The notes under the pieces were generated by a model. That model saw nothing but the letters and a program-made list of their open reading frames with translations. It was not told the DNA's origin and made no database searches. The position numbers were made by a program, and so were the translations under genes. A stretch of DNA of 64,000 bases from Gammaproteobacteria bacterium AqS3. GTDB taxonomy: Bacteria > Pseudomonadota > Gammaproteobacteria > MEIF01 > AqS3. Of the stretch, positions 1-64,000 are shown one piece after another (positions within the stretch are counted from its first letter, which is position 1; the number at the start of each line of letters is the position of its first letter). Where the stretch lies: positions 1-64,000 of the forward strand of contig MEIF01000013.1 of assembly GCA_001750645.1 (NCBI GenBank), written 5' to 3'.

Positions 1-675
1 GAGCCAAACGCCGTTGCGGTTCAGCTCGCCGTGCTCAAGATCGTCGCAATGCAGATTCCAGCGATGCAGCTGCCATAGTCCGCTGCGATGGCCATAGTTG
101 CGGCAGACCGTCCGCAGCCCTGGCCTCGGAACTCAACCGAGGCAATACCCTGCCCGACCGCTGCAATGCTGTTGCGGTGATGCTCGCCGCGCTGCAGATA
201 GATAAACCCTCATGGTGCGAGCTAATCTCCAGGCAGATGAAGGGCGCTCACACGCGCATCAAAAATATCGGGTCCGTGGAGTTTCCGGGTCGGTTTCCCG
301 GAGAGAAGGCTGTCTTTTCAAGCAGCCCTGGGCGGCGGGATGCACGGACAGCATTGCAGCTGAAGGCGGGACAAACAGGCACCGGAGATTGGCCAGGGGC
401 GCTGAGCAGCGATGGGATGCCGCACTTGCAGCCGTTCGGGCGGTGTTCTGGCATCACGGTCTGCCCCCCGGGATGCGTTCCACGCTGGAACCGCAACGCA
501 GCATTTCCCCTTCGCCTCGGGCCGTCCTCCAGTCCTCCATCTATATGTGTGCGCGCGCGCTGTTCAACGGTCAGCCGCTGCCGGCGACTGAGACTGGGAC
601 CAGGCAGATCAAGGTGTATTGCACAACATCCGGCATCCGACCGACCGCCCTGCCGGGGACGGGCATTCAGGCGCG

Positions 676-17200: not shown

Positions 17201-20200
17201 GTGCTGTCCGTCCCGGTCACCTCAACCGTGATATCGGGGCTGGCGTCATACGATGCGGACAGCCGGAATGTAAAGGACGCAGAGCTGCCCTCAGTCACCC
17301 TGACCGAGGTGATTGAGTGCACGATGGTTCGGACATCGTTGTCCAGCACCCTCGCCGTCACCGCACCGGTGACATCGACGTAACCGCCGCCGGCGGCGGA
17401 CAGCGTCACGCCCGCATTTGAGCTGTCGATATCGTCGTCATCCTCGCTGGCCAGCACCGCCACAGACTGGGGCGTATGCCAGTTGCTTGAATCGAACCGC
17501 AGCTCCTCCTGGGCGGACTCAAGCCCGGAGGAAAAAACCAATGTGACAGTCACCTCGGCCGTCGGCTCCGCAGAGAGCGCCACTGTGAAGTCGAGCGTGT
17601 CACCTTCCCGGATGTCCCCCAGGGATGTTCTCGACAGGATCAGGGCATTCGATTCATCGTCCGCAATGTTCACCGTGATGCCGCCCCTGAGGCCATCGTA
17701 ATTGCCGCCCGCGGCGAGCAGGTCGATCCCGGTTTCCTTATCCACCGCGTCAGGATCGTGAACCGGGCTGGCCGTCACCGACCTGGGGATGTTCCAGTTT
17801 GAGGAGCTGAATGCGAGGGATGTCGGGCTGACTGTCAGGCTGCCCGCATCCCGGCTGGAAATGGACACCGAGACATCGGCCAGCGGCCGCGTCGCCAGCT
17901 GCACGGTAAAGCTGCCGTCGACAGATTCATTCAGCGCCAGCGTCTCGGACGACAGAACCAGTGCGACGACATCGTCATCGGAAATCGAGACATCCGCACT
18001 GGCGGAGGTGTTGTCATAGCCCCCGCCCGAGGCCGTCAGGTTGATCGTCGCAGTTTCATTGTCGGCATTGGCGTCGTGCAGGGCCAACACCGACACGGCC
18101 TGGGGGATGTTCCAGTTGCCCGAAGTGAAGGTCAGCGCCTCCCCGGCTGACACCGATGCCAGGGCGGGTTTGGAGCTCTGTGCGCGCACCACCACACTGC
18201 CGATGGGAACGCTTGACAGGGCCACATTGAACTGCCTGGCAGACCCGCCCTCGGTGAGTTTCAGCGGGGCTCCGGTGACTCTCAGGACGGCGGCGGACAG
18301 GTCGTCGTCTCGAACCGAGACGGCCACCTGCCCCGTCGGTGCGGAGGAGTAGCCCCCGCCGGAGGTGCTGACGGAGATGGTCACAGATTCACCGACTGCA
18401 TCGGCGTCCTCGGCTGCGGAGAGCGTCACAACCTGCGCCACATTCCAGTTTTCCGGAGTAAAAATCAGCCAGTTCTGGATCCCGGGGTCAGCCGGGCGGG
18501 TGTCATCGACTGAGACGGTGCTGCCGCCCGACACGGAAAGAAACAGGGTGACATCCTCCGACGGCGCCACACCCTTCAGACTGACGTTGAAGGACAGGCT
18601 TTCGCCCTCCTCCACGGTCAGCGAGGCCGGCGGCAGGTTCAGCGACGGGACGTCGTCATCGGCGACATTGACCGATATCGTCTGGGTCTGATCGTTTTGA
18701 TCCCCGCCTCTGATCGAAAGCGTGACATTGATATTCTCATCGCTGCCATCGGAATCGTCCAGCGCCCTCACCGTAATGGTCTGGCGCAGCGACTGATAGT
18801 TGCCGATTCCGTAGAGGATGGCCTGGGGCGACACCCGAAGCTTGCCGGGGTCGTCGCTTCTCAGCACGATCTGCGCGCTCGCCGTATTCGGGTTCAGCCG
18901 GGTTCTGACGACAAAAGTCCCCTCGCCCTCCTCGGCAATGGACAGCTCATTTGAGGACAGGTAGAGCGGCTGAGTCAGGCTGTTGTCGAGCACCTCGACC
19001 GTGCGCGCGGCGCTGACGTTGGCATAACCGCCGCCCGATGCCGTCAGGCTGACCGAAACCGAGTTGTCCTCGCTGTCGGCGTCGCTGCCGGCGCTGAGCT
19101 TGACGCTCTGCGGGACGTTCCAGTTTGAGGGCGTGAAGGTCAGCGACTCCCCCTCGGCCACGGCGAGCCTGGTCGAGTCAGCCGAGGCGGCGGCAAGCGT
19201 CACAGCACCGTCCGGCTGTGCTGACAGCGACACCATCAGGCTCCCGCTGGAATCCTCAAACAGTTCAAGGCTCGCCGGCGTCACCAGCAGTTCGGGCTCG
19301 AGCACCTCGACCGTGATCCGCGCATAGGCGTCGTCATAGCCCCCGCCTGCGGCGCTCAGGAAGAGGGTCGCGGCATCGGCGATGGAGTCTGCATCGCGCG
19401 CCGCGGCGATCCGAACCGTCTGCGGGCTATTCCAGTCGGCGACAGTGAATCTCAGAACATTTTGATTGCCGGCGGCCACCGGGTCGGTATCCAGCTGCAC
19501 GTCGGAGACGGCCGGCTGCACCAGCGTCAGCGTCACATCGTCGCTGGGCGGAACCAGCAGCTGGACGCTGAAGGTGTCCGTCCCGCCCTCGGTCAGCGAA
19601 ATCGAGCTCGGCACGTTGAACGAGGGGGAATCGCCGTCCTGGACACGAACCGTGACGGCGGCGTCAAAGCCGCTGTAATTCCCGCTCGAGGGGATCAGGC
19701 GGACGGCCACCTGCTCATCGGCGGGGTCCCTGTCTGCAACGGGGGCCACGGTAACCGTCTGGTTCAGGTACCAGTTGTTTCTGGTGAAGTCCAGCGAGCT
19801 GGGGGAGACGCTCACGGCGCCGCTGTCCTGGCTGACGAGCGACACCGTCATCGTGTTGGTGGTGGGCCGGGTTCTCAGGCGGACCTCAAAGTCGGCCGAG
19901 TCGCCGCCCTCCTGGAGGGAGATCTCGGTGGACGAGAGCAGCAGCTTGGGCCCCTCATCATCCTCAATCGACAGTCCGAGATCCCTCTCGATGCCCGTGT
20001 AGGAACCGCCCGAAGCCCTCAGCGTGACGACAACCTCCTCTCCGTCCGAATCGATGTCCTGGATTCCGGAAATCGTCATGATCTGGGGGACATTCCAGTT
20101 CCCCGCCGTAAAACTCATGCTGCTCGGGGAAATGTTCGTCTTGGAGGGGGCGGAGCTCTGAGGTTCAATGGTGACGGCGGCGCTCGGCGACGAATTCAGC

Positions 20201-47790: not shown

Positions 47791-49370
47791 CTAATACATC
47801 TTGCGCTGCAATTCCAGCCGGGTCCTGCGGATCTCCTCGCTGTTCTGATAGCTCTGCCGCTCGCTGAACAGGCGGAACTCCAGCCCGCCCCTGCTGCGGA
47901 AGCGCAGCCCGTTGGTCAGCTGATCCGAGGGCATGTCGCCATCGACGAGGGTGTATTCAACGTAGGGGGTCAGCATGCCGCCGAAGGCGTCAAAGCCGTA
48001 GCCGGCGCTGCCGCCCAGCGCCGTGCGCCGGATCTGCTGCGTCTGCAGCGCCGCCGGACCCGAGCGGCCAAAGGCCTCCTCCCGCTCCAGCACGCGGTCC
48101 AGGCGCGGCCCCCACTCCGGCCCCAGCGCCAGCGACAGGCCGCGCCCGGCGGAGTCCCTCGACTTCAGCCTCAGCTCGAGGGTGGCGCCCCATTCCTCCA
48201 GGGCGTCGGCGGAGTGGACGCCCAGCCACTGCATCGAGGCGTTCAGGCTGAGCCGACGCTCGGGGAAGCACAGGTTGGCGGCGCCGGTGAGCTCCACGCC
48301 GGTTCCGGTGATCCCGTCGCCGGCGTCCTCGCGCAGCGAGATCCCCAGCCTCGGCGAGACCTGCACCGCCTCGCCGAGGCCGACGTGCGAGAGCTCGACG
48401 CCCGCGCGCAGCTGCTGCACCGCGACGCTCAGATTGGCGAAGGCCGGCGCCGGGCTGTTTTCGGTCTCAAAGCGGCTGGTTCCGGCGCTGCCGACGGCGG
48501 AGAGCCTCAGGCTGCCCAGCCGCGCCAGCGGCCAGCTGCCGCCCAGCGAGGCCATCTCAAAGGTCAGGCCGGTGCGCTCCCTGCGCCCGAGGGCATCAAG
48601 GCTCTGGACACTGCCGGCGCCCAGCCCCAGCATCATGTGCAGCGAGCCGCTGCCGAGCTTCAGGTCCATGTAGGGCAGCAGCGTGGTCAGGCTGGTGTCG
48701 AGGGCGGTCTCGCGGTCGAGCACGCTGTAGCGCGCCTCGCCGCCGCTCTGCCCCAGCGCCAGGCCGAACAGCGAGCTGTTGGGCGTGCGCTGATCAAAGC
48801 CCAGCCACATCGAGTCCTGGGCGCCGTCGTAGCTGAACGCCCCGCCGAGGGAGCCGCCCACGAAGTCGCCCACGGAGCCGTTGAAGCGGCGCTGATCGTG
48901 GCTGCCCCACAGCGTCCGGCCGGCCAGGTGCGAATCCACGTCGCCGGCCATTGCGTAGGAGAAGCTGGTGATGAAGGGCAGGTTGATCGAGGCTGCGGTG
49001 CGGGCCTGATCGGCGAATGCCGGCCTGCCCTCCTTCAGTGCGACCCCGCCGAGCCAGTCGGCGTCCATGCGGTCCAGGCCGAACCAGCCGAGGCGGTAGC
49101 GCTCGGCGCCGGCGAGCCGGCGGTTCTGATCTTCCTCGACTGCGCGCAGCCGGTAGGCCGCCAGCAGTGCGGCCGGATCACGCTCATCATCAGAGGCGCC
49201 GAGGCCGACCTGGCGCCCGCCGACCGTCATCGTGCGCGCACCGGCGGCGGCGTCAAAGCGCCGGCCGATGACCTCGCGCGAGCTGGAGAGCATCGCGCGG
49301 CCCAGCTCGGCCAGGGCGTGCCTGGCTGCGGCGCGCTCGGCGCGGGCCAGCGCCAGCCCCTCATCGTCCT
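47791..49370 (-). other. Linker plus autotransporter-like beta-barrel domain of giant protein 2
   Basis: ADWLGGVALKEGRPAFADQ...LPFITSFSYAM...DSMWLGFDQRTPNSSLFGLALGQSGG...EDAGDGITGTGVELTGAA...GRGLSLALGPEWG...FGGMLTPYVEYTLV aligns segment by segment with giant protein 1. Confidence 0.75.
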
Positions 49371-52300
49371 GAATCGCCAGGGTGAGCTCGCCGGTCACGC
49401 CCTCGTATTCGGCGCCCGAGGCGCGCAGCCGGAGGCTGACCGTCTCGTCGTCGTAGTCGTCGTCGTGCAGGGCGCTGACGGTCACGACCTGACCCGTGCC
49501 CCAGTTTTCCGCCGTGAAGGTCAGGCGGGCGGGGGCGACCGAGGCGGCAGCGCCGTCGCCGCTCTCGATCACCACGGACACCTCGACCGTCGGCTGCGAC
49601 AGCAGCTTGACGGAGAACTCGGCGCCGGCGCCCTCGACCAGCTCGAGCACCTCGGCCGAGAGCTCCAGACCGGCGTATTCGTCGTCGATCAGGTTCACGC
49701 CCAGCTCGGCCGTGACCCCGTCATACCCGCCGCCCGCCGCCTTCAGGCTGATGGTGGCGGCGAGATCCGCGGCGTCCTCGTCCTGGCCGCCCTCGAGCAG
49801 CACGCTCTGCGGGGTGTCCCAATCCTCGGGCGTGAAGGTCAGCTCCTGCGGTGCGATCGCAATGGCGGGGTCGCTGCTGCTGAGCGTCACCGTGACCTCC
49901 GCCAGCGGCTGGAGCTCCAGCTGGACATCAAAGCTGCCGGTGCCGCCCTCGTCAAAAGTCAGCTCCTCGACCGACAGGCTCAGCGCCGCCCCATCCAGCT
50001 GCTCGATGTCCGGGGTCAGGCTGGTGTTGTTGTCCGTCACGTATATGGTGATGTTTTTGACTTTCCCCTCGTATTCGAATCCGGAGGTCGCCAGCTGCAG
50101 CGAGGTCGTTTCATGTCTCGAATCGCTGTCCCGCACCCCCGACACCGTCAGATTTTGCTGGACGTTCCAGTTGGTCGCATCAAATGTCAGCGTCGCCGGA
50201 GAGACTGTGGCGATCGTGGTGTTGGCGATGGTCGCAGTCAGGGTCGTGCTTCTGTGGGGCGCCGAGAGCAGCGTCACCCCGAAGCTGCCCGTGCCGGTTT
50301 CCTGCACGGTCAGCTCTGAGTTTGAGGTGTAAATGCCCGCGACATCGTTGTCGTAGACGCTGATGCTGCCGGTGACCACCTGACCGTCGTAATCGGCCCC
50401 GGCCGCCTCGTATCGCACGGAGAGCACTTCGCTGAGGGCGTTGTCGTCCTGCAGCGCCCGGATGCTGAAGTGCTGGCGATCGCGCCAGTCTTCGGGGGAG
50501 ATGACCACCCTGTCGGGAATCGCCCTCAGTTTTGTGCTGTCTGTGAATGTGATGCTCACGACCACGTCGTCCTCCGGTATCGAATTCAGCGAGAAATAGC
50601 CGGTGTGGTCAGCCCCGCCCTCGCGCGCAATCCCGCTGGGATCGTTGACCAGCAGGCCCTCGCTGTCGTTATCGAGCACCCTCACGACAACGCTCTCGGA
50701 CTCGGAGGAATATCCACCGCCTGTGGCCGCCAGGTTTACCGTCTCGATATCGTCAGATGTGGTCAATCCATTCCTGGCCCAGATTGTGAAGACCTGCGGG
50801 GTCTGCCAGTTTGAAGTCGTGAATTCCATCTTGTCGTAGGGCTGCACAGTCAGCACCTGTTTGTCGCTGAGGGTCGGGATGACCGTCACCTTGCTCGTGG
50901 GACGGGTCGCCAGGCTGACCCTGAAGGTTTCGAATTCGCCCTCCTCAAGGATTAGCGAGCGCCTCGACAGCACCAGCGACGGGGCGTCGTCGTCGGCAAC
51001 CGTCACGGACAGGACCGCCTCGGCAGAGGAGTAGTCGCTCGTGGCATTCAGCGTGATGGTCGTGCTCTCGTCGATGATGTCGGAATCCTGGAAGGCGATG
51101 ACCGTGACGCTCTGCGGCTGGCTCCAGTTGGCGCCGGTAAAGACCAGGCTGGCCGGTGATACCGAGACATCCCCGCCGCCGCTGACAACCGTCACGCTGA
51201 CACTGGATGCGGGCTGGGAATTGAGCTTCACAGAGAAGTTTTGGCTGGACCCCTCTTCGAGCGCCATCGTCGAGGACGACAGGGTCAGGCCCGCGGCATC
51301 GTCGTCGCTCACATTGATCGCAACGGCCCGGGTCACCCGGCTGTAGCCGCCGCCCAGCGCCCGGATGTTCACCTGCGCACTCTCGGACACCGTATCGCTG
51401 TCCTGCACCCCATGGATCGTGATGTTCTGCGCGATGTCCCAATTGCCCAGATCAAAGAGCAGGCTCGAGGTCGAGAGCCGCAGGTCTGCGGACGTGCTGG
51501 AAACGGTGACCGCAACCGGCGCCGTCGGCCGCGCGTTCAGCCTGATCGCCAACTGCCCGCTGGAGCCCTCGCCTATCGTCAGCTGGCTGGCCGAGACCTC
51601 GATGGTGTATGGGTCATCGTCAATGATCCACATCGGAAGCTCGTAATCACTGAAGACCCTGGTGCGCGTGCGGAACAGCAGCGCATCCGTGTCGTCGACC
51701 CCGTCGGCGTCGTGGAGGGCCGTGAAGTTGTAGGTCTGCGGCTCATTCCAGTTGTCCTTGTTGAAGTAGAAGTAGGTGCCCCCCGGAGGCGACAGCCCCT
51801 CCTTGTGGGTGAATATGCGCACGGACTCCACTGTGTCGCCGGGCGACTGGGAGAGGGCGACCGTCACCGAACCCTGCTGGCCCTCGACGATCCTCAGGCT
51901 CGACGTGCGCACGATCACCTGGGCCCCGTCATCATCCAGCACCTCCGTATCGACATACCGCACCAGATCGTCGTAACCGCCGCCGAGGGCGGAAATTTTG
52001 ATCTTCACAGAGCGCTGCCCGCTTGTGTTGCTGTCTTCAACCCCGTTGATCACAAATTTCTGCGGAACATTCCAGTTGCCGGTGGTGAAGGTCAGCTGGC
52101 TCGTCGGGAGCGACACCAGGGTTGATGTGGTGCTCGCCGACAACGTCACATTGGCAGACGGCCGCGTGGCCAGCCTGACAGTGAACTCGGTGCTGCTTCC
52201 CTCAAGAACGGGCAGGCGGACGTCGTTCAGGCCGTTCTCGGAGAAGATCAGCTCCGGATCATCATCATCCACCACGGTCAGGCGAATCTTTCTGGCGAGG

Positions 52301-55300
52301 TCGGAATAGTTGCCGCCCGAGGAGCTGACGCTGATCAGGGCGAGCCGGTCGCCGGTGGTGGTGCTGTCGTTCGATGCCGACACCCACACCCCCTGCATCG
52401 TATTCCAGTTGCTCCTGGAGAAGCTCAGGCTCGTGGCCGAGAGCGAGGCGAAAGCGCTGTCGCTGCTCAGCGAGACCACGACATCGCTCGAGGGCCGATT
52501 CGCCAGCCGCACGGTGAAGTAGGCCGTCTGACCCTCCTGCACCCTCATCAGGGTGTCCGACAGAGCCAGACGGGGATGCAGCTCCTCCTCCTCAATGTCG
52601 ACGGCGTAATCCTTGACAAAACCCTCGTAACTTTCGCCGGTGGCGTTGAAGCGGATCGATCCCGCACCGGTCTCCCCGTCGCCCGCCTGCCCCAGTGAAT
52701 AGAACCGGACATCCCTCCACCGATTCCAGGTGTGCGGATAGAACCGGAAGACCGTATCCCGAACCGCCAGCAGTGAATTTCCGCTGCCCACCGTGACCTT
52801 GACCCGGTTGGTCGGCGGTGTGGCCAGCCTAAATCTGATCAATGTGGTGCCGCCTTTCTTGATCCTTTTCGTGCTGGGATCAATCTCAATATCGGGGTCT
52901 TCGTCGTCGTAGATCGTCACCGCCACCCTCTGGGTCGATGAGGGGAAGCCGCCACCGGATGAGACCAGCGTGATGGTGGCGCTGCCGTCATTGGAATCGC
53001 TGTCGTGGCTTGCCGTGAAATTGACCGTCCGGACATTGCTCCAGTTGCTCGACGTGAAGGTCAGGCTGGAGCTGGAGACGCTCAGCACGGTGCTGCTGCT
53101 GCTGGCGATGTTCACCGTCACATCGGAATCGGGCTGGGTATTGAGGCTGACCCTGAAAGAGCCCGTGCTGTTTTCATTGACGGTTCGGGTGGTATTCCAC
53201 ACCTTCACGCCGGGGGCGTCATCATCGATCAGACTCACCGCAATGCTCTGGGTCTGATTGTTGTAGGCGCCGCCGCTGCTGCTGAGCTGCACGGTCGCCG
53301 AACCGTCGAGGGCATCGGCGTCCTGGGCGGCCATGACATCGACGGACTGCAGGGTGTTCCAGTTGGAGGGGGTGAAGGTCAGGCTTGAAGTCGAGAGGGT
53401 CGAGGTGCCGTCGACGCTCACCGCCACAGTCACCTGCGTCACGGCCGGCTTGGAGGACAGCCGCACCGAAAAGGTCGCCTTGCCGCCCTCGTGCACGGTC
53501 AGGCTCGAGGGCGCCACGACGATGTCGTAGGTGTCCAGATCCGTCACGACCACCTGGACGCTGGTCGTGACCCCCTCGTAATCGCCGCCGGAAGCCGCCA
53601 CGGTGAGGGTGGCCTCATTGTCGAGCGCATCGGCATCATTGAGCCCGGCGATCTGGATGACGTACTGCTGATTCGGCCACGCGCTTCTCCGGAACTCCAC
53701 ACGCCCCTTGGAGGCGCTCACCCACGGCGAGCTGCTGGTAATGCTCACCCACACATCAGACGAGGGCCTGGTGTTCATGCTGAGGGTCAGCTCGCCGTAG
53801 CTGCCCTCATTCACGGTGATCTTCGAGGCCGACATCGTCAGTCCCACGGTGTCGTTGTCATCAATCGATACGACGACATTGGCCGCCAGGCCGTCGTAGC
53901 TGCCCCCCGTGGCGGCCAGCTGAATGTGCGCGGTGTTATCGACGGAATCGCCGTCCTCAAGCGCCCGCACCGTCACCGTCTGCGCCGTATTCCAGTTTGC
54001 GGCGGTGAAGAGCAGGCTGGCGGACGACAGCTCTGCTCCGGTGTGCCCGCTTGTGATCCCCACCGTCACATTGCCTGGCGGCTGCGTTTTCAGGCGCACC
54101 GTGAAGCTGCCGGAGGAGCCCTCGTCGATGCTCAGGCTCTCGGTCGACACCACCAATCCGAACGCCTCATCGTCGACCACGGTCACCGACAGGCTGGTGG
54201 TGGCGCTGGAATACCCGCCGCCCGAGGCGGCCAGGCCGATGATGGCCTGGTCATTGATGTTGTCGCTGTCCTCGACGCCGACGAGCGTCACCGTCTGCGG
54301 CGTGCCCCAATTGTCCGCAGTGAAGGTCAGGCTGGAGGTCTGCAGCGTCACCGCCGCCGTCGAGTGGTTGGTCAGTGCAACGCTGACATTTCCGGTGGGC
54401 TGGGTGTTGAGCTTCACGGTGAAGGTTCCCGAACGCCCCTCGTGTATCACCACGGTCGATGACGAGAACGTGAAGCCGATCATGTCGTCGTCATCCACCT
54501 GGACCGAAACGTCCGCCAACAGCCCCTGGTAGTCGCCGCCCGAGGCGCTCAGGCTGATGGTCGTGCTGGCATCGTCGGAGTTGTCGTCCTCGACCCCTGA
54601 GACCGTCACGGTCTGCCAGGTGTTCCAGTTGCCGGCGGTAAAGGTCAGGGTCGAGGTCGACAGCGACACCACGCCGGCGGCAGCCACTGCGAGGTCGATC
54701 TGAACCGATGCACTCGGCTGGGTGGTCAGCTTGAGGTCAAAGCTGCCGCTGCCGCCCTCGCCCACCGTCATGCTCGAGGCCGACAGCTGCAGCGACGGCG
54801 TGTCGTCGTCCCTGACATAGAGCAGCACCTGCGCCCGCTGCGAGGCGTATTCGACGGCGCCCGAGGCGGCGATGCTGATCTGCGTGCTGATATCGGAGGA
54901 ATCGGTGTCCTGAGCGCCGGTGACGGTCGCGGTCTGCGGCGTGCTCCAGGTTTCGGTGTTGAAGTTCAGCACCGCCGGGGAGATGCTCGCCCCGACGTTT
55001 CCGCTGGTCAGCGAGAGCGCCACGGCGGCACTCGGTGCGACATTGAGGCGCACGGTGAAGACACCCGAGGCGCCCTCGTGCACCGTCAGGGTTGAGGACG
55101 ACAGCGTCAGGCCAACGGCCTCATCATCGGTCACGGACATCTGCAGGCCCGTCGAGACCCCGGCATAGTCGCCGCCCGAGGCGGTCATGCTGATCAGGGC
55201 GCTTTCCGGGTCGGAGTCGGCGTCCTGGGTGCCCCTGATGGTCAGCTGCTTGGCGACGCTCCAGTTCTGCACCGTGAAGCTCAGGCTGGCGGCAGACAGC

Positions 55301-58300
55301 GAGACCGCCGTGCTGTTGCTCGTGATCTGCACCGTGACATTGGCAGACGGCTTGCTGGCGAGCCTGACGGAGACGACGGCGCTGGAGCCCTCGCCGATGG
55401 TCAGCCTGCTCGCCGACAGCTGGATCCCGGCCGTCTCATCGTCCGTCACCGTCACATTGAGGCTGCCCTTGATCCCGGCGTAGGCCCCGCCCGAGGCGGT
55501 CAGTGCAATGCTGGTTGTGATCGACCGGGCGTCGTCGTCCTCGACGCCCCTGATCGTCACGCTCTGGGGCGTGCTCCAGTTGCCCGAGGTGAACGCCAGG
55601 CTTGTGCTCGACAGCGAAACCCCGGCATCGCCGCTGACCAGTGCAACCGTCACGTCATGGGTGGGCACGATGCTCAGGCGCACGGTGAAGCTGCGGGTCT
55701 CGCCCTCCTCGACCGTCAGCGCCGAGGCCGACAGCATCAGATTGGCGGCCTCATCGTCCTGCACCGTCACTGCGATGCTGCCGGTGACGTCGTCGTAATC
55801 CCCGCCGGCAGCCGCCAGCGTGATGGCGGCCTGCCCGTCGGCGGCATCGGCGTCGTCGCTGCCGTGCACCGTCACCGTCTGGGCGACATTCCAATTGCCG
55901 GTGGTGAACGTCAGGCTCTGGGTCGACAGCGTCGCCGCAGCGTCGCTGCTCGACAGGGTGACCGTCACATTGACGCTGGGCCGGCTGGTCAGCTTCACGG
56001 TGAAGTCGCCGCTCAGCCCCTCGTGCACCGTCAGCCGGTCGCTCGACAGCGCCAGGCCGGCCCGCTCATCGTCGTCGACCGAAATCGCCACGGCGCTGCT
56101 CAGGCCGGCGTAGTTGCCGCCCGAGGAGCTGAGGGTCAGGGTCGTGCTCTCATCGACGGCGTCGCTGTCCTGGACGGTGGAAATCCTCAGCGTCTGGGCT
56201 GTGCTCCATTCATCCGTGTCAAACACCAGGGTCGCCGGGGTGACCGTCGCAGCTGCGGTGTTGGCGATCGACGCCGACACGGTGACCTGGGCGGTCGGCT
56301 GAATGTTGAGGCTCACCGTCAGGTTCTGGCCATCGCCCTCATTGATCGTCAGCGTCGGGGACGACAGCCTCAGGCCGGCGACCTCGTCGTCGTTGACCCG
56401 CACATTGATGCTGTGCGAGGCTCCCGAGTACTCGCCGCCCGCGGCGCTCAGCCTGATGACCGTGTCCTCGTGGGTGGTGTTCAGGTCCTGGACGCCGGTG
56501 AACTGAACCGTCTGCGGTGTGCTCCAGTTCTGCGGGGTGAAGTTGAGGCTCGAGACCGAAACCGACACGGCCGCCGTGTTGTCGCTGGAAACCGACACGG
56601 CGACGTTCTGGGTCGGAACGGCGCTCAGACGCACCGTGAAGCTGCCGCTGCTGCCCTCGCCGATCTGCACGGTGCTCAGCGACACATCCAGGGCGGCGGT
56701 CTCATCGTCGCTGACGGTCACCTGCACGCTCTCGGACGCATTGTTGTAATTGCCCCCCTGGGCGGTCAGGTTGATCCGGGTGCTGCCGTTGACGGCGTTG
56801 TCATCCTGGGTGCCGCTGATCGTCACCGTCTGGGCGGTGTTCCAGTCTGAGGTCGTAAAGCTCAGGCTCGCCGGGGCCGCCGTTGCGACCTGTGCACTGG
56901 CGCTGCCGACCGAGACCGTCACAGCCTCGCTGGGCCGGTTGAAGAGCCTGACCGTGAAGCTTCCGGTGCCGCCCTCCGAGAGGCTCACCGACTCGGGCGA
57001 GACCCGCAGCCCGACCGCCTCATCGTCCCGGATCGTCACCGGGACGCTCCTGCTCAGCCCGGAGTAGTCGCCGCCGGCGGCATTCAGGCTGACGCTCAGC
57101 GTTTCGGAGTTCGAGTCGGAGTCCTCGACGCCCCCGACCGTCACGCTCTGGGAGAGGCTCCAGTTGGTCTGGGTGAACGTGAGGCTCTGCGGCGAGACCG
57201 TCGCCGAGTCGCTGCTGGCTGCGACCGAGACCACCACCGTCGCACTCGGGCGGCTGCTGAGCCGGGCGGCGAAGATGCCGGACTCGCCCTCGATGATCTT
57301 CAGCGAGGCGGGATTCACATTGATCCTGGCGACATCGTCGTCGGTCACCGTCAGTGCGACCGTTGCACTGAGGCTCTGGTACTGGGTGTCGCCCGAGGTC
57401 GTCAGGGTGATGACGGCGCTCTCGTCGACCGCGTCCGGATCCTGGACCCCGGTCACCGTCACGGTCTGATCCGCATTCCAGGTGGCGGCTGAGAAGCTCA
57501 GGCTGGCGGTCGACAGCGTCGCAGCGCCGCTGCTGAGCGAGAGCGACACCGACACGGGCTGGGACGGCTGCAGCGTCAGGCGCACCGAGAAGGTGGCGGT
57601 GCCGCCCTCGGCAACGCTCAGCGCCGGGGTCGAGCGCCTCAGCCCCGGGGCCTCATCGTCGCTGACGGTCACCTGCACGCTGTCGGTGATGCCCTCGTAG
57701 TTGCCGCCCGCCGCCGTCAGGGTGATGCTGGTGCTCTCGTGGGCGCTGTCGGCGTCCTCGGCGCCGGTCACCGTGACGGTCTGCGGTTCATTCCAGTTGC
57801 CGGCATTGAAGGCCAGGCTCGACACCGAAGCCGACGCCGCAGAGGTGTCGGCGCTGACAACCGAAACCGTCACCGCGGCGCTGGGCTGGCTGGTCAGCCG
57901 CAGGGTGAAGCTGCCGCTGTTGCCCTCGTCGATCGCCAGCGTCGAGGGCGACAGCATCAGCCCGGTGCTCTGCCCGTCCCTCACAGTCACCGCAACAACG
58001 GACGAGCGGTTTTCGAAGCCGCCGCCCGCGGCGGACACGGTGACGCTCGACACGAGATCCTCGGCGTCCGCATCCCGCACCGCCGACAGGGTCACCGTCT
58101 GCACCGTGCTCCAGTTCGAGGTTGTGAAGCTGAGGCTCGAGGGCAGGGCGCTCAGCGCCGCCAGCGCCGGCGTGATCGTCACCGAGACCGGCCCGATCGG
58201 CTCGACGTTGAGCCGCACCGTGAAGTTGGCGGTGCCGCCCTCGTTCATCGTGATGCTGCCGGCGCTCAGCACCAGGCTGGCCGAGTCGTTGTCCCACACC

Positions 58301-61300
58301 GTCACATCGATGCGCTTCACCAGCCCGTCGTAGCCGCTGCCCGAGGCCGTCAGGGTGACCGTCTCGCTCTCCTGCAGGGTGTCCTCGTCGTCGACGCCGT
58401 TGACCATCAGCGTCTGGGCAATATTCCAGTTGGATGGCGAGAACTGCATCGTCGCCTGGGACGTCGACACCGCGGTCGCATCGCTGCTGGCAATGGCCAC
58501 CGACACCGTCCCCTCCGGCTGGGCGCTCAGCCTGACGGTGACCTGGGAGCTGGCGCTCTCGGTCACCGTCAGGCTTGCGGCCGAGACGATCAGGTCAAAG
58601 CCCTCGTCGTCCTGCACCACCACGGTGACGGCGTCGGTCACGCCGGCAAAGTTGGCGCCCGAGGCGCTCAGGTTGATCTGGGTGCTGCCGTTGTCCGAGT
58701 CGGCGTCCTGCACCCCGGTCACGCTCACCGTCTGCACCGTGCTCCAGTTGCCGCTGTTGAAGGACAGGCTGGCGACCGATGTGGTCGCGACCGAGACGTC
58801 GGCGCTGGCGACCGAGACCATCACCGGGGCGCTCGGCTGCCTGTTGAGCCGCACGGTGAAGCTGCCTGTGCTGCCCTCCTGCACCGACACGAGCGATGCG
58901 CTCAGCGCCAGGCCGACGGCCTCGTCGTCCTTGATCGTCACCGACAGCGACTCGCTGATCCCGGCGTAGTCGCCGCCGGCGGCGCTGATGCTGACGGTTG
59001 CGGTCTCGTGATCGGAATCGGCGTCCTGGGATGCGGTCAGCTCGACCGTCTGCTGGGTGTTCCAGTTCTGGGCGGTGAAGCTCAGGCTGCTGCTCGACAG
59101 GCTCAGCGCCCCGCCGCCGCTGCCGCCGCTGGAGAGCCTCAGCGTCACGGTTGCGGTCGGCTCGCTGGCGAGGCGAACCATAAAGCGGCTGGCGCTGCCC
59201 TCCCCGAGCGTCAGCGTTCTGGACGAGAGCGCCAGCCCGGCCGTGTCGCTGTCGATCACCTGCACCGACAGCTCCCGCTGCACGCTGGAGTAGGGGCCGC
59301 CGATGGCTATGATTCGAATCGCCAGGATCTCGCTGACGGCATTGGCATCCTCAACCCCGGTGACGGTCACCGTCTGCGGCGTGCTCCAATTGAGCTGCGA
59401 GAAGCTCATGCTGTGCGGCGCCAGCGTCACCGCCGTGCCGCTGGTCCCCATCATCAGGCTCACCGGGGTCTGCGGGATGGTATTCAGGCGCACCGTGAAG
59501 CTGGTCGTGCCGCCCTCCCGAACCGTCAGGGTCGAGGACGACAGCGTCAGGCCGATCGCCTCGTCGTCCTCGACGAGCACCGACAGGCCGCCGACGACGC
59601 CGTTGTATTCGGCTCCGGAGGCGGGCAGCCCGATGGACACGCGCTCGGGCTGCGCATCGATGTCCTGGACCCCTGAGACCGTCACGCTCTGGGGCGCGCT
59701 CCAGTTGTCTGCGGTGAACGTCAGGCTCTGGGGCGTCACTGTGATCGCACCGCCGTCGCTGACCCAGACCGGCACCGTCACGCTGGTGCTCGGGCGGGTA
59801 TTCAGGCGAACAGTGAACGCCCCCGAGGAGGCCTCGCCGATCGTCAGGGCGAAGGCCGACAGATTCAGGCGCGGCATGTCGTCATCGACCACCGTCACCT
59901 GGGCGCCGGCGCTGATCGTCCCGTAGCCGCCTCCGGAGGCATTGAGATTCACCGCCGCCCGGTTGTCGACGCCATCGTCGTCCTCGACGCCGGTCAAAAC
60001 CACCGTCTGCGGCGTGCCCCAATTCGCACGGGTAAAGCTCAGCCGGCTCGGCGCCACCCCGACCGCAGCGGCGCTGCTGCTGGCAACCGAGACGCTCACC
60101 GGCCCCGACGGCTGGACATTGAGGCGCACCGTCAGATTCTGGTTGGCCCCCTCGCCGACGGTCAGCGTCGAGGACGACAGCGTCAGGCCGACGGCCTCGT
60201 CGTCGGTCACCGTCACCTGAAACGCCCCGGTCACGCCGTCGTAGCCGCCGCCCAGCGCCGACAGGCTGATGGTCGAGCTGCCGGAGGCGGAGTCCGCATC
60301 CTGGACGCCGGTGACCGTGATGGTCTGCGGCTGGTTCCAGTTGGTCGCCGTGAAGCTCAGCGCCGTCGTCGAGACCTGCGCCGCGGCGGTGTTGCCGCTG
60401 GCGACCGACACCGCCACGGGGCCGCTGGGACGGCTGGCCAGCCGGACGGTGAAGCTGCCGCTGGAGCCCTCGCCGATCGTCAGGCTCAGGAGCGACAGCT
60501 CCAGCTCTGCGGTTTCATCGTCGATCACGGTGACCTGCACGAACCCGGTCACGCCGGCGTAGTTGCCGCCCGAGGCGGTCATGTTGATGCGATTGCTGTT
60601 GTTGTCGGCGTCGTCGTCCTGCGTCCCGGTGACCGTCACAGTCTGTTCGGTCGACCAGTTCGAGCGGGTAAAGTTCAGGGTCCCCGGTGCGACCGCCGAA
60701 ATCGAATGGTCGCTGCTGGAGAGCCGCACACTGACGTCATGCGTCGGCCGGGTGGCGAGGCTCACGGTGAACGTCCCGGTGGCGCCCTCCTGAACCGACA
60801 CCGAGGGCACGGAGCGCCGCAGGCCCACCGCCTCGTCGTCCCGGACCGTCACCTGCACGCTCTGCCCCAGCCCGGTGTAGTCGCCGCCCACCGCCCTGAG
60901 ATTGACCGTCACCGTCTCGGTGTTCGAATCCGCGTCCTGAACCCCCGTGACCGTCACGCTCTGGGCGGTGCTCCAGCTGGCTGCGGTGAACGTCAGGCTC
61001 GCCGACGAGACGGTCGCCTTGCCGCTGTCGCTGGCGACCGACAGCGTCACCGCCGCACTCGGCTGGCTGGTGAGCTGGACGGTGAAGCTGCCGGTTTCGC
61101 CCTCCTGCACGGTGAGCTCGCCGGGCAGCGCCTTGATCCCGAGCTCCTCGTCGTCGTCCACCGTCACCGCCACCGTCGAGCTGAGGTCGGCGTATTCGCT
61201 GTCGCCCGACGCCGTCAGGGTCGCCGTGACGCTGGCGTCAGCGGCATCGGCGTCCTGGACTCCGGTGACGGTCAGCGTCTGGGGGGCGCTCCAGTTGTCG

Positions 61301-64000
61301 GTCGTGAAGCTCAGGCTGCCCGGCGACAGCGTCGCGGCGCTGCCGGAAATCGCGGCCGCCACCGTCACGGCCGAGGCCGGCTGAATGTTGAGGCGCACCG
61401 TAAGGGTTTCGGAGGCGCCCTCGGCGACGGTCAGCGTCGAGCTCGACAGCTTCAGGCCCGGCGCATCGTCGTCGCTGACATCCACAGATATGCTGGCGTT
61501 GATCCCCTGGTAGTTGCCGCCCGACGCCGTCAGCCGGACGTGGGTGCTCTCGTGGTCGGCGTCGGCGTCCTGGGCGCCGGTCAGCGTCACGCTCTGCGGC
61601 GTGCTCCAGTTGCCGGTGCTGAACGCCAGGCTGGTGGTCGCCACCGACACAGAGGCATCATCGCTGGCCACGGACACCGTCACCGCCTGGGTGGGCTGGC
61701 TGGAGAGCTGGACGGTGAAGCTGCCGCTCGAGCCCTCCTCGATCGCCAGCGACGCCGCCGACAGCGTCAGCCCGGTCGCGACCCCGTCGACAACCGTCAC
61801 CTCGACGCTCCTGGAAATGCCCGCATAGCCCCCGCCCGAGGCCGCCAGGGTGATGGTCGCACTGCCGTTGACCGAATCCGCATCCCGCACCCCGGCCACC
61901 GTCACGGTCTGCACCGTGTCCCAGTTCGAGGTCGTGAAGCTCAGGCTCGCCGGCGACACCGTCGCCGCCGCCGAGGAGCTGCTCAGCGACACCGACACCG
62001 TCCCGGCCGGGACGGTGTTGAGGCGCACCGTGAAGCTGCCCGTGGCCCCCTCCTGAATCGACAGCGTCGCAGCGGACACGCCCAGGCCGGCGGCCTCGTC
62101 GTCCCAGACCGTCACCTGGACACTCTTGACCAGCCCCTCGTAGCCGCCGCCCGTAGCCGTCAGATCGATGCGCGATCTGGATTCAAGGGCGTCGCTGTCG
62201 TCAACCCCCGAAACCGTGATGGTCTGCGGGGTATTCCAGTTCGAGGTCGTGAAGCTCAGGCTGGCGGCCGAGAGCGAGGCCGCAGCCGTGTTGCTGCTCA
62301 CTGCGGCGACCGTCACCGCAGCCATCGGCCGGTTTCTCAGCCTCACGGTGAAGTCGCCGCTGCCGCTCTCGCCGATGGTCAGGCTCGATTCCGACACCAT
62401 CAGGTCGGGGGCCTCGTCGTCCCGGACCGCGACCACGACGCTGTCGCTGACGCCGGCGAAGTTGCCGCCCGAGGCTCTCAGGCTGATCACCGCACTGCCA
62501 TTGGCCGCATCGGCGTCCTGGACACCCGACACGGTGATCGCCTGCGGGGTGCTCCAGTTGCCGCCGGTAAATGCCAGCGAGGCGACCGACACCGTCGCCA
62601 CCGAGCCGTTGCCGCTGCTGACCGAGAGGGTCACCGGGCTGGTCGGCTGGGTGTTGAGCTTGACCGTGAAGCTCTCGCTCTCACCCTCCTGAACGGTCAG
62701 CTCCGAGGACGAGAGCGCCAGCCCGACCGCCTCGTCGTCCTTGATCGTCACGTCGACCCTGTCGCTCATTCCGGCGTAGTCGCCGCCCGCGGCGCTGAGG
62801 CTGACAGTCGCGGTGTCGTCCCTGGAATCGGCGTCCTGCAGGCTGGTCAGGATCACCGTCTGCGGCGTGTTCCAGTTGAGGGCGCTGAAGGTCAGGGCGG
62901 AGGGCGCCAGGGTCAGCGCACCGGTGCCGCTGCTCGACAGGCTGACCGTCACCGCGGCGCTGGGCTGGCTGTTGAGATGCACCGTCAGGCGGCTGATGCC
63001 GCCCTCGCCGATCCTCAGATCATCCGACGAGAGCGCCAGCCCGCGGCGCTCGTCGTCGACCACCGACACCGAAAACTCCCTGCCCGAACCGGAATAGCCC
63101 CCGCCCGCGGCGGTGATGCGAACCGTGGCATTCTCGTTGTCGGCGTCGGGGTCATGAACCGCCTGAATCGTCACCGTCTGGAATGATTCCCAGTTGGCGG
63201 TGTTGAAGCTCAGGCTGCTCTGCAGCAGTCTCGCCGCGGAGTCGCTGCTCACCAGGGAGAGCGTGACAGGCCCGCTCGGCTCGATGTTGAGACGCACCTT
63301 GGCATTGATCGTCGCACCCTCCAGCACCGTCAGCGTCGAGGACGCCAGCGTCAGGCCGATGCCCTCGTCGTCCTCCACGGTCACGGCCGTGCGGCCCGTG
63401 ACGCCGCCGTAGTCGCCGCCTGTGGCGCTGAACCGGATCTCAACTCGCTCCTCATTCGAGTCGTCGTCCTGAACCCCCTGAACCGTCACGCTCTGGGGGA
63501 TGTTCCAGTCGCCCGGGGGGAAGGTCAGATTCGACGGGGTCACCGTCGCGGCGCCGCCGTCGCTGCTGGACACGTTCAGCGTCACGCTGGCGCTCGGGCG
63601 GCTGCTCAGGCGAACACTCAAACTGCCCTGCGAGCTCTCGCCGATCCTCAGCGTCTGGGACGACAGTCTCAGGGTGCGCCTGTCGTCATCGACCACCGTC
63701 ACCTGCACGCTGACGCTGACGCCCCCGTATCCGCCCCCGGCGGCATTCAGGCTGACCACTGCGGTCTCGTCGACGGCGTCGTCATCCTCGGCTCCGGTCA
63801 GCACCACGGTCTTCGGCGTGCTCCAGTCGGTCTGGGTGAAGCTCAGGCTGGTCAGCTCGGACACGGTCGCGACGCCGCTGTTGCTGACCACCGACACGCT
63901 CACCGGCCCGGTCGGCTGGAGGTTGAGGCGGGCCGTGAAGGCCGTCCGGCCGCCCTCGGGCACATTGACGGTGGAGGAGGACAGCGTCAGGCCGACGGCA
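47791..64000 (-). CDS. Giant Calx-beta-like tandem-repeat surface protein with C-terminal autotransporter-type beta-barrel (5' end beyond window)
   Basis: ORF of 5390 aa to 63963. The reading frame stays open to 64000 (AVGLTLSSSTVNVPEGG), so the listed GTG start is internal. About 46 visible domains, then a barrel ending ...RLELQRKMY. Confidence 0.9.
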   Translation of the reverse strand, partial: AVGLTLSSSTVNVPEGGRTAFTARLNLQPTGPVSVSVVSNSGVATVSELTSLSFTQTDWSTPKTVVLTGAEDDDAVDETAVVSLNAAGGGYGGVSVSVQVTVVDDDRRTLRLSSQTLRIGESSQGSLSVRLSSRPSASVTLNVSSSDGGAATVTPSNLTFPPGDWNIPQSVTVQGVQDDDSNEERVEIRFSATGGDYGGVTGRTAVTVEDDEGIGLTLASSTLTVLEGATINAKVRLNIEPSGPVTLSLVSSDSAARLLQSSLSFNTANWESFQTVTIQAVHDPDADNENATVRITAAGGGYSGSGREFSVSVVDDERRGLALSSDDLRIGEGGISRLTVHLNSQPSAAVTVSLSSSGTGALTLAPSALTFSALNWNTPQTVILTSLQDADSRDDTATVSLSAAGGDYAGMSDRVDVTIKDDEAVGLALSSSELTVQEGESESFTVKLNTQPTSPVTLSVSSGNGSVATVSVASLAFTGGNWSTPQAITVSGVQDADAANGSAVISLRASGGNFAGVSDSVVVAVRDDEAPDLMVSESSLTIGESGSGDFTVRLRNRPMAAVTVAAVSSNTAAASLSAASLSFTTSNWNTPQTITVSGVDDSDALESRSRIDLTATGGGYEGLVKSVQVTVWDDEAAGLGVSAATLSIQEGATGSFTVRLNTVPAGTVSVSLSSSSAAATVSPASLSFTTSNWDTVQTVTVAGVRDADSVNGSATITLAASGGGYAGISRSVEVTVVDGVATGLTLSAASLAIEEGSSGSFTVQLSSQPTQAVTVSVASDDASVSVATTSLAFSTGNWSTPQSVTLTGAQDADADHESTHVRLTASGGNYQGINASISVDVSDDDAPGLKLSSSTLTVAEGASETLTVRLNIQPASAVTVAAAISGSAATLSPGSLSFTTDNWSAPQTLTVTGVQDADAADASVTATLTASGDSEYADLSSTVAVTVDDDEELGIKALPGELTVQEGETGSFTVQLTSQPSAAVTLSVASDSGKATVSSASLTFTAASWSTAQSVTVTGVQDADSNTETVTVNLRAVGGDYTGLGQSVQVTVRDDEAVGLRRSVPSVSVQEGATGTFTVSLATRPTHDVSVRLSSSDHSISAVAPGTLNFTRSNWSTEQTVTVTGTQDDDADNNSNRINMTASGGNYAGVTGFVQVTVIDDETAELELSLLSLTIGEGSSGSFTVRLASRPSGPVAVSVASGNTAAAQVSTTALSFTATNWNQPQTITVTGVQDADSASGSSTISLSALGGGYDGVTGAFQVTVTDDEAVGLTLSSSTLTVGEGANQNLTVRLNVQPSGPVSVSVASSSAAAVGVAPSRLSFTRANWGTPQTVVLTGVEDDDGVDNRAAVNLNASGGGYGTISAGAQVTVVDDDMPRLNLSAFALTIGEASSGAFTVRLNTRPSTSVTVPVWVSDGGAITVTPQSLTFTADNWSAPQSVTVSGVQDIDAQPERVSIGLPASGAEYNGVVGGLSVLVEDDEAIGLTLSSSTLTVREGGTTSFTVRLNTIPQTPVSLMMGTSGTAVTLAPHSMSFSQLNWSTPQTVTVTGVEDANAVSEILAIRIIAIGGPYSSVQRELSVQVIDSDTAGLALSSRTLTLGEGSASRFMVRLASEPTATVTLRLSSGGSGGGALSLSSSSLSFTAQNWNTQQTVELTASQDADSDHETATVSISAAGGDYAGISESLSVTIKDDEAVGLALSASLVSVQEGSTGSFTVRLNRQPSAPVMVSVASADVSVATTSVASLSFNSGNWSTVQTVSVTGVQDADSDNGSTQINLSASGANFAGVTDAVTVVVQDDEGFDLIVSAASLTVTESASSQVTVRLSAQPEGTVSVAIASSDATAVSTSQATMQFSPSNWNIAQTLMVNGVDDEDTLQESETVTLTASGSGYDGLVKRIDVTVWDNDSASLVLSAGSITMNEGGTANFTVRLNVEPIGPVSVTITPALAALSALPSSLSFTTSNWSTVQTVTLSAVRDADAEDLVSSVTVSAAGGGFENRSSVVAVTVRDGQSTGLMLSPSTLAIDEGNSGSFTLRLTSQPSAAVTVSVVSADTSAASASVSSLAFNAGNWNEPQTVTVTGAEDADSAHESTSITLTAAGGNYEGITDSVQVTVSDDEAPGLRRSTPALSVAEGGTATFSVRLTLQPSQPVSVSLSLSSGAATLSTASLSFSAATWNADQTVTVTGVQDPDAVDESAVITLTTSGDTQYQSLSATVALTVTDDDVARINVNPASLKIIEGESGIFAARLSSRPSATVVVSVAASSDSATVSPQSLTFTQTNWSLSQSVTVGGVEDSDSNSETLSVSLNAAGGDYSGLSRSVPVTIRDDEAVGLRVSPESVSLSEGGTGSFTVRLFNRPSEAVTVSVGSASAQVATAAPASLSFTTSDWNTAQTVTISGTQDDNAVNGSTRINLTAQGGNYNNASESVQVTVSDDETAALDVSLSTVQIGEGSSGSFTVRLSAVPTQNVAVSVSSDNTAAVSVSVSSLNFTPQNWSTPQTVQFTGVQDLNTTHEDTVIRLSAAGGEYSGASHSINVRVNDDEVAGLRLSSPTLTINEGDGQNLTVSLNIQPTAQVTVSASIANTAAATVTPATLVFDTDEWSTAQTLRISTVQDSDAVDESTTLTLSSSGGNYAGLSSAVAISVDDDERAGLALSSDRLTVHEGLSGDFTVKLTSRPSVNVTVTLSSSDAAATLSTQSLTFTTGNWNVAQTVTVHGSDDADAADGQAAITLAAAGGDYDDVTGSIAVTVQDDEAANLMLSASALTVEEGETRSFTVRLSIVPTHDVTVALVSGDAGVSLSSTSLAFTSGNWSTPQSVTIRGVEDDDARSITTSIALTASGGAYAGIKGSLNVTVTDDETAGIQLSASRLTIGEGSSAVVSVRLASKPSANVTVQITSNSTAVSLSAASLSFTVQNWSVAKQLTIRGTQDADSDPESALISMTASGGDYAGVSTGLQMSVTDDEAVGLTLSSSTLTVHEGASGVFTVRLNVAPSAAVALSLTSGNVGASISPAVLNFNTETWSTPQTATVTGAQDTDSSDISTQISIAASGAVEYASQRAQVLLYVRDDDTPSLQLSASSMTVGEGGSGSFDLKLTTQPSASVQIDLAVAAAGVVSLSTSTLTFTAGNWNTWQTVTVSGVEDDNSDDASTTISLSASGGDYQGLLADVSVQVDDDDMIGFTFSSSTVVIHEGRSGTFTVKLNTQPTGNVSVALTNHSTAAVTLQTSSLTFTADNWGTPQTVTLVGVEDSDNINDQAIIGLAASGGGYSSATTSLSVTVVDDEAFGLVVSTESLSIDEGSSGSFTVRLKTQPPGNVTVGITSGHTGAELSSASLLFTAANWNTAQTVTVRALEDGDSVDNTAHIQLAATGGSYDGLAANVVVSIDDNDTVGLTMSASKITVNEGSYGELTLSMNTRPSSDVWVSITSSSPWVSASKGRVEFRRSAWPNQQYVIQIAGLNDADALDNEATLTVAASGGDYEGVTTSVQVVVTDLDTYDIVVAPSSLTVHEGGKATFSVRLSSKPAVTQVTVAVSVDGTSTLSTSSLTFTPSNWNTLQSVDVMAAQDADALDGSATVQLSSSGGAYNNQTQSIAVSLIDDDAPGVKVWNTTRTVNENSTGSFRVSLNTQPDSDVTVNIASSSSTVLSVSSSSLTFTSSNWSNVRTVNFTASHDSDSNDGSATITLVSSGGGFPSSTQRVAVTIYDDEDPDIEIDPSTKRIKKGGTTLIRFRLATPPTNRVKVTVGSGNSLLAVRDTVFRFYPHTWNRWRDVRFYSLGQAGDGETGAGSIRFNATGESYEGFVKDYAVDIEEEELHPRLALSDTLMRVQEGQTAYFTVRLANRPSSDVVVSLSSDSAFASLSATSLSFSRSNWNTMQGVWVSASNDSTTTGDRLALISVSSSGGNYSDLARKIRLTVVDDDDPELIFSENGLNDVRLPVLEGSSTEFTVRLATRPSANVTLSASTTSTLVSLPTSQLTFTTGNWNVPQKFVINGVEDSNTSGQRSVKIKISALGGGYDDLVRYVDTEVLDDDGAQVIVRTSSLRIVEGQQGSVTVALSQSPGDTVESVRIFTHKEGLSPPGGTYFYFNKDNWNEPQTYNFTALHDADGVDDTDALLFRTRTRVFSDYELPMWIIDDDPYTIEVSASQLTIGEGSSGQLAIRLNARPTAPVAVTVSSTSADLRLSTSSLLFDLGNWDIAQNITIHGVQDSDTVSESAQVNIRALGGGYSRVTRAVAINVSDDDAAGLTLSSSTMALEEGSSQNFSVKLNSQPASSVSVTVVSGGGDVSVSPASLVFTGANWSQPQSVTVIAFQDSDIIDESTTITLNATSDYSSAEAVLSVTVADDDAPSLVLSRRSLILEEGEFETFRVSLATRPTSKVTVIPTLSDKQVLTVQPYDKMEFTTSNWQTPQVFTIWARNGLTTSDDIETVNLAATGGGYSSESESVVVRVLDNDSEGLLVNDPSGIAREGGADHTGYFSLNSIPEDDVVVSITFTDSTKLRAIPDRVVISPEDWRDRQHFSIRALQDDNALSEVLSVRYEAAGADYDGQVVTGSISVYDNDVAGIYTSNSELTVQETGTGSFGVTLLSAPHRSTTLTATIANTTIATVSPATLTFDATNWNVQQNLTVSGVRDSDSRHETTSLQLATSGFEYEGKVKNITIYVTDNNTSLTPDIEQLDGAALSLSVEELTFDEGGTGSFDVQLELQPLAEVTVTLSSSDPAIAIAPQELTFTPEDWDTPQSVLLEGGQDEDAADLAATISLKAAGGGYDGVTAELGVNLIDDEYAGLELSAEVLELVEGAGAEFSVKLLSQPTVEVSVVIESGDGAAASVAPARLTFTAENWGTGQVVTVSALHDDDYDDETVSLRLRASGAEYEGVTGELTLAIQDDEGLALARAERAAARHALAELGRAMLSSSREVIGRRFDAAAGARTMTVGGRQVGLGASDDERDPAALLAAYRLRAVEEDQNRRLAGAERYRLGWFGLDRMDADWLGGVALKEGRPAFADQARTAASINLPFITSFSYAMAGDVDSHLAGRTLWGSHDQRRFNGSVGDFVGGSLGGAFSYDGAQDSMWLGFDQRTPNSSLFGLALGQSGGEARYSVLDRETALDTSLTTLLPYMDLKLGSGSLHMMLGLGAGSVQSLDALGRRERTGLTFEMASLGGSWPLARLGSLRLSAVGSAGTSRFETENSPAPAFANLSVAVQQLRAGVELSHVGLGEAVQVSPRLGISLREDAGDGITGTGVELTGAANLCFPERRLSLNASMQWLGVHSADALEEWGATLELRLKSRDSAGRGLSLALGPEWGPRLDRVLEREEAFGRSGPAALQTQQIRRTALGGSAGYGFDAFGGMLTPYVEYTLVDGDMPSDQLTNGLRFRSRGGLEFRLFSERQSYQNSEEIRRTRLELQRKMY
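49371..64000 (-). repeat. Array of about 46 visible tandem Calx-beta-like domains (~310-320 bp each)
   Basis: Manual count by E-G...FTVxL...P and NW motifs; array runs off the window. Confidence 0.85.
56380..63999 (-). repeat. Tandem 12-domain super-repeat: copy A about 60196-63999, copy B about 56380-60195
   Basis: Domains 1-12 pair in order with domains 13-24 through unit-specific segments. Offset between equivalent AVGL/VAGL positions is 3804 bp, then 3816 bp. Confidence 0.85.

Follow-up and report, generated by a model that had tools for sequence, protein, structure and literature searches.

A 12-domain block, probably duplicated once in tandem, within a giant Ig-like-domain gene of Gammaproteobacteria bacterium AqS3

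In the middle of giant gene 2 of this genome, two adjoining blocks of 12 domains match each other domain by domain, and we put at roughly 90% the probability that the gene encodes a giant surface protein in which one 12-domain block was duplicated once in tandem and subsequently diverged. The window analyzed here covers bases 1-64000 of C34, a contig of 77,176 bases in a repeat-rich 3.16-Mb draft genome of 234 contigs. A first-pass annotation of the window had already proposed a block duplication of 12 domains followed by divergence, and this proposal is borne out by the lag spectrum, a DNA tree, an excess of agreement at synonymous sites, the spacing of the domains and a whole-genome search.

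Results

Architecture of gene 2

Gene 2 is encoded on the minus strand, with its stop at 47791. Its frame is uninterrupted and open to contig position 76764, the first ATG being at 76728, which gives approximately 9,645 codons, with 12.7 kb of the gene lying past the window edge. The repeat was thus rightly located inside gene 2 in the first-pass annotation, but the gene itself does not end with the window. With a domain profile derived from the gene's own protein, we find 84 tandem domains of about 106 residues (d1-d84), two of them weak or partial. The window contains d39-d84, and the domains numbered 1 and 24 earlier are d39 and d62 here. The features discussed below are as follows.

47791..63999, minus strand: part of gene 2 within the window, 5,402 codons, d39-d84 and the predicted C-terminal barrel; the gene runs on to contig 76728
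60514..63996, minus strand: copy 1, d39-d49 within the window; its first domain, d38, lies outside it at contig 64000-64314
56701..60510, minus strand: copy 2, d50-d61, lag-12 partner of d38-d49
62095..62409, minus strand: d44, with the rare shared marker ...GLVKSVQVTVWDDE
58285..58596, minus strand: d56, partner of d44, with the marker ...GLVKRIDVTVWDND
61786..62091, minus strand: d45, ending in the unusual VVDG, not DDE
57976..58281, minus strand: d57, partner of d45, ending in VRDG, not DDE
56383..56697, minus strand: d62, outside the block with the possible exception of its N-terminal part, in which the likeness of d50/d62 is about equal to that of d38/d50
49360..56697, minus strand: remaining array d62-d84, without the lag-12 repeat and without the A/B alternation described below
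47794..49356, minus strand: C-terminal 521 residues, modeled as an alpha-helix followed by an outer-membrane beta-barrel similar to the translocators of type Va autotransporters; last residue Tyr

An AlphaFold model of a domain pair consists of two Ig-like beta-sandwiches (pLDDT 97), whose nearest solved folds are generic Ig-like sandwiches, including cadherins and Leptospira LigA, at low overall TM-scores. A search of the PDB by sequence gave no match. The domains match fn3_6, in one place above its cut-off. Calx-beta (PF03160) was considered as the family and rejected, the best score in the genome being 22.1 bits against a cut-off of 27, with no match in gene 2.

The C-terminal 521 residues have no match in Pfam and no significant one in NCBIfam. 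They recur at dozens of places in the genome, the near-full-length copies being 34-42% identical, and almost all copies read end, as gene 2 does, in Phe or Tyr. Their model, of moderate confidence (pLDDT 69), comprises a helix and a barrel of more than 12 strands, and its best Foldseek matches are autotransporter beta-domains (Hbp, EspP, NalP, BrkA), with TM-scores (target) mostly at 0.60-0.71. What is more, gene 2 has a hydrophobic signal-like segment ahead of its first domain, as have most of the long paralogues whose start is included, the start codon being uncertain. Judging from sequence and models, the product of gene 2 is likely a surface fibre anchored by a barrel of the autotransporter type: an N-terminal signal-like segment would be followed by a long stalk or fibre of 84 Ig-like domains, and the C-terminal barrel would sit in the outer membrane.

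The lag-12 repeat and its limits

The first-pass annotation had claimed an in-register excess at lag 12 over lags 1-11 in the domain identity matrix, and such an excess is what we find. Namely, the mean amino-acid identity among d39-d62 is 0.567 at lag 12, while it lies between 0.41 and 0.48 at every other lag from 1 to 23. Once row and column means are subtracted, the diagonal run that stands out most in d26-d73 consists of 12 pairs at lag 12, starting from d38, and the best run of 8 pairs, likewise at lag 12, has an excess of 0.125, compared with a maximum of 0.084 among 2,000 shuffles of the domain order. Over the whole array this run is the sole significant diagonal in gene 2, and in a comparison of arrays with 100 shuffles its z is 14.6. 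Within d38-d49/d50-d61, paired domains are each other's best or near-best partners; for 9 of the 12 domains of copy 1, the best-partner tables rank the lag-12 partner first to third. The two copies adjoin, on the same strand and in the same frame.

The block begins one domain earlier than had been thought. Domains 1-12 and 13-24 of the earlier numbering do match in register, but the true frame is d38-d49/d50-d61. Similarly, the span given before, 56380-63999, covers most of the block, but copy 2 ends at 56701, and copy 1, with a total span of contig 60514-64314, starts 314 bases outside the window edge. Four of the five example pairs offered earlier (6/18, 7-8/19-20, 9/21 and 11/23) stand; only 13/25, i.e. 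d51/d63, needed correction, as it is a local match outside the block with an overall identity of 0.44, a rank of 26 and an excess in the first quarter only. The flanking pairs drop out, with d37/d49 at an identity of 0.34 before the block and d51/d63 after it. Resolved by domain quarters, the excess spans d38 to d49, is negative at d37/d49 and is confined to the first half at d50/d62, the last of which fits a tandem duplication with its junction inside a domain. The junction would lie in or near the N-terminal part of d38, d50 and d62, but a window-by-window comparison of their DNA does not fix its exact base.

Descent and age of the two copies

The likeness extends to DNA, and it does so at positions that leave the protein unchanged. 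Among d38-d61, lag 12 gives a DNA identity of 0.702, compared with 0.58-0.63 for other lags, and third codon positions agree at 0.656 against 0.55-0.59 at the other lags computed. Where two domains share a residue, they use the same codon at a frequency of 0.726 at lag 12, while lags 1-11 give 0.61-0.66. For four-fold degenerate third bases, the agreement is 0.671 at lag 12 and 0.55-0.63 at lags 1-11. This agreement in codons and at four-fold sites argues for descent, since convergence of protein sequence would not yield it. In a maximum-likelihood DNA tree of d22-d73, lag-12 pairs are sisters in 10 of 12 cases, nine of them with bootstrap values of 91-100; d43/d55 and d46/d58 form no clean sister grouping. 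The spacing of the conserved Trp is identical in 10 of the 12 pairs, and the blocks measure 1,268 and 1,271 residues.

Could the 12-domain periodicity instead be functional, a ruler or a set of binding sites at fixed positions in the manner of titin, with selection or convergence maintaining the in-register likeness? The super-repeats of the titin A-band do reflect filament architecture (PMC10665226), and rare residues and unusual linkers, such as the VVDG/VRDG of d45/d57, are indeed common in register to both copies. Nevertheless, common descent would be needed in any case to account for the greater likeness of synonymous positions at lag 12. In addition, there are two copies only, lag 12 is absent in d1-d37 and in d62-d84, and an arrangement of more than two copies with position-specific sites was not found. 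Finally, the per-pair identity ranges from 0.49 to 0.65 along the block without any fall-off and is not concentrated at fixed positions. For these reasons, we regard such a functional periodicity as very unlikely. The evenness of identity is, on the other hand, what one would expect of a single duplication event.

An artefact of assembly deserves mention in a draft of this many contigs and repeats. However, a DNA identity of only 70% is much too low for a single sequence that was assembled twice, and the copies lie in one uninterrupted frame; chance, in turn, is excluded by the permutation test. Together, artefact and chance carry a practically negligible probability.

Returning to tandem duplication, we envisage that a 3.8-kb unit, d38-d49, was copied once in mid-gene to give d50-d61, presumably through unequal recombination or replication slippage between the domain repeats of about 318 bp, and that point changes and a few small indels then came to separate the copies. 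The outcome would be a stalk longer by 12 domains, rather than a unit serving a separate function. The duplication is old: the four-fold excess is modest and synonymous sites are near saturation, i.e. nearly randomized. That said, d36 clusters with d48 and d60 in the DNA tree (support 99/74), and the history directly upstream may therefore be more complicated than one event. A third copy upstream was considered on this account and rejected, as it would comprise one domain only, d37/d49 being without a match.

A two-domain alternation beneath the block

In d22-d61, even lags lie systematically above odd ones; for d38-d61, the difference, even minus odd, is 0.026, with a null standard deviation of 0.006. 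The domains alternate between a type A, '...IGEGSSGSFTVRLSSQP...', and a type B, '...VQEGGTASFTVRLNTQP...', over a region that covers 56701-64000 of the window and continues on the contig to about 69,500, while the even/odd difference is absent in d62-d84. The 12-domain block consequently looks like six A/B pairs, and the alternation itself, as read from the sequences, looks like the trace of an older two-domain unit. It is significant also in an array on another contig, C177, and more weakly in one on C125. A six-domain half-unit within the ancestral block was also considered and rejected, lag 6 not rising above the A/B alternation (p 0.15).

Other arrays in the genome

When copy 1 (d39-d49) is compared with the whole genome, copy 2 is found at 57% identity over all 1,161 residues and 1,228 bits, whereas the next-best place anywhere reaches 560 bits at 42% identity. 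This bears on the idea that one of the blocks originated in a paralogous giant gene and arrived by gene conversion or transfer. The genome does contain dozens of paralogous arrays, and there are cases of separate genes being alike in register. On contig C171, two neighboring giant genes (2-9854 and 10056-19116) have arrays that match in register over about 6 kb at 71% DNA identity, and contigs C164 and C171 have 3.6 kb in common at 78%. Array similarity in this genome is hence found between genes, and not only within them. Yet nowhere in the assembled genome searched is there an array that matches one block better than the copies match each other, the closest falling far short at 560 versus 1,228 bits, and the two copies are directly adjacent. 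We thus hold import to be highly improbable, and the duplication most likely took place within gene 2.

Gene 2 is only one of many such genes. At least 53 frames carry three or more domains, totaling 1,252 domains and 157,344 residues, or 14.9% of the 3.16-Mb genome; these figures are a lower bound, as they come from 36 contigs or contig stretches, and further contigs also have matches. The longest such frame has 10,469 codons. About a dozen of the 44 arrays with at least 11 domains contain in-register repeats clearly above all 100 shuffles, while many others contain none, and block duplication is by this measure a recurring mode of array growth. A 3,866-codon frame on C186 has a lag of 11 over 12 pairs (z 7.3, identity 0.49 versus 0.36 for its array), and a 3,923-codon frame on C185 has a five-domain block (lag 5) in a 10-pair run at 73% identity, which is clearly younger than the block of gene 2. 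Shorter in-register lags are 4 (C125, C178), 3 (C168 and giant gene 1), 2 (C177) and 1 (several arrays). Giant gene 1, at 676-25359 on the minus strand of the window, has 8,227 codons, 67 domains and the same C-terminal barrel as gene 2; apart from a short lag-3 repeat near its start, a long super-repeat was not found in it. The 12-domain unit of gene 2 is the largest and clearest among the arrays read.

With a 12-domain duplication, an older A/B alternation and, in paralogues, younger repeats of 1-5 domains and one of 11, the arrays are seen at several stages, and the steps of their growth can be ordered. One may speculate, and we do so tentatively, that a repertoire of giant fibres is expanding here, with lengths and surfaces continually rebuilt by duplication of blocks of 1 to 12 domains, such that remodeling, and not point mutation alone, would drive surface diversity; the repeat of gene 2 would then be a fossil of this process, possibly laid down on an older A/B unit.

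Comparison with known systems

The best-known parallel is the titin A-band, with super-repeats of 7 domains in the D-zone and 11 in the C-zone (PMC10665226). As in gene 2, blocks of many beta-sandwich domains have been duplicated there as units, equal positions are more alike than neighbors, and growth took place in mid-chain. Titin differs, however, in combining Ig and FnIII domains in a fixed pattern, in having 6 and 11 copies and in its thick-filament role, whereas gene 2 has one domain family, two copies and a product that is probably a bacterial surface protein. Nebulin expanded in steps of seven domains (Bjorklund et al. 2006, PMC1553488), again with several domains per duplication, often in mid-array, as found by a similar lag analysis. 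The survey in the same paper reported few repeat proteins in prokaryotes (PMC1553488), whereas gene 2 is a bacterial case with a unit of 12 domains.

With the type Va autotransporters, gene 2 shares a barrel model that is closest to theirs in the PDB, a terminal aromatic residue and an N-terminal hydrophobic segment. Their barrel, preceded by a helix, has about 12 strands, while the gene 2 model, at its pLDDT of 69, has more; moreover, the passenger of gene 2 would be a chain of Ig-like sandwiches and not a beta-helix, and its C-terminal region is about 500 residues long. Very long extracellular proteins built from repeats are also known as giant adhesins: one of Mobiluncus mulieris has 51 Ig domains in 7,651 residues (PMC10619420), Giant1-5 of Apilactobacillus kunkeei take up 6% of the genome (PMC12863079), and BapP of P. 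tunicata has Calx-beta-like sandwich repeats of 108-141 residues (PMC12153261). These are, however, Gram-positive or type 1 secreted, while gene 2 has an autotransporter-like barrel (by its model), more domains, and a genome with at least 53 array-bearing frames around it.

Block growth of domain arrays and giant Ig-domain adhesins were thus already known, and gene 2 is a new, well-preserved bacterial instance: a clean case of titin-style growth that can be traced pair by pair. The more unusual fact is arguably the share of the genome, at least 15% of 3.16 Mb, that is given to array genes, which raises the question of what this large investment in surface fibres is for.

Relatives in other genomes and surroundings of the gene

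For the C-terminus, BLAST against 35 genomes of the same class returned no relatives, nor did a first scan of named genomes. Profile scans found a sole named relative, from a metagenome-assembled genome titled Alphaproteobacteria, and one to four short, distant relatives in each of 10 of the 368 other same-class genomes sampled. The repeat domain is present, at lower scores, in 28 of the 273 other genomes sampled from the class. A plasmid search gave two weak matches and a phage search none.

Within the window, no RNA families or tRNAs were found. Between giant genes 1 and 2, at 25602-47682, lie ordinary core genes, namely two Na/Ala symporters, a pyridine nucleotide-disulphide oxidoreductase, a DNA polymerase III delta'-like protein, YceG, an acyltransferase-domain protein, a NUBPL/ParA-type ATPase and RnfC- and RnfD-like genes. 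Opposite both giant genes, the plus strand of the window carries long antisense open frames of up to 826 codons that mirror the repeat arrays; they are most likely a by-product of high GC content and codon use, and not genes.
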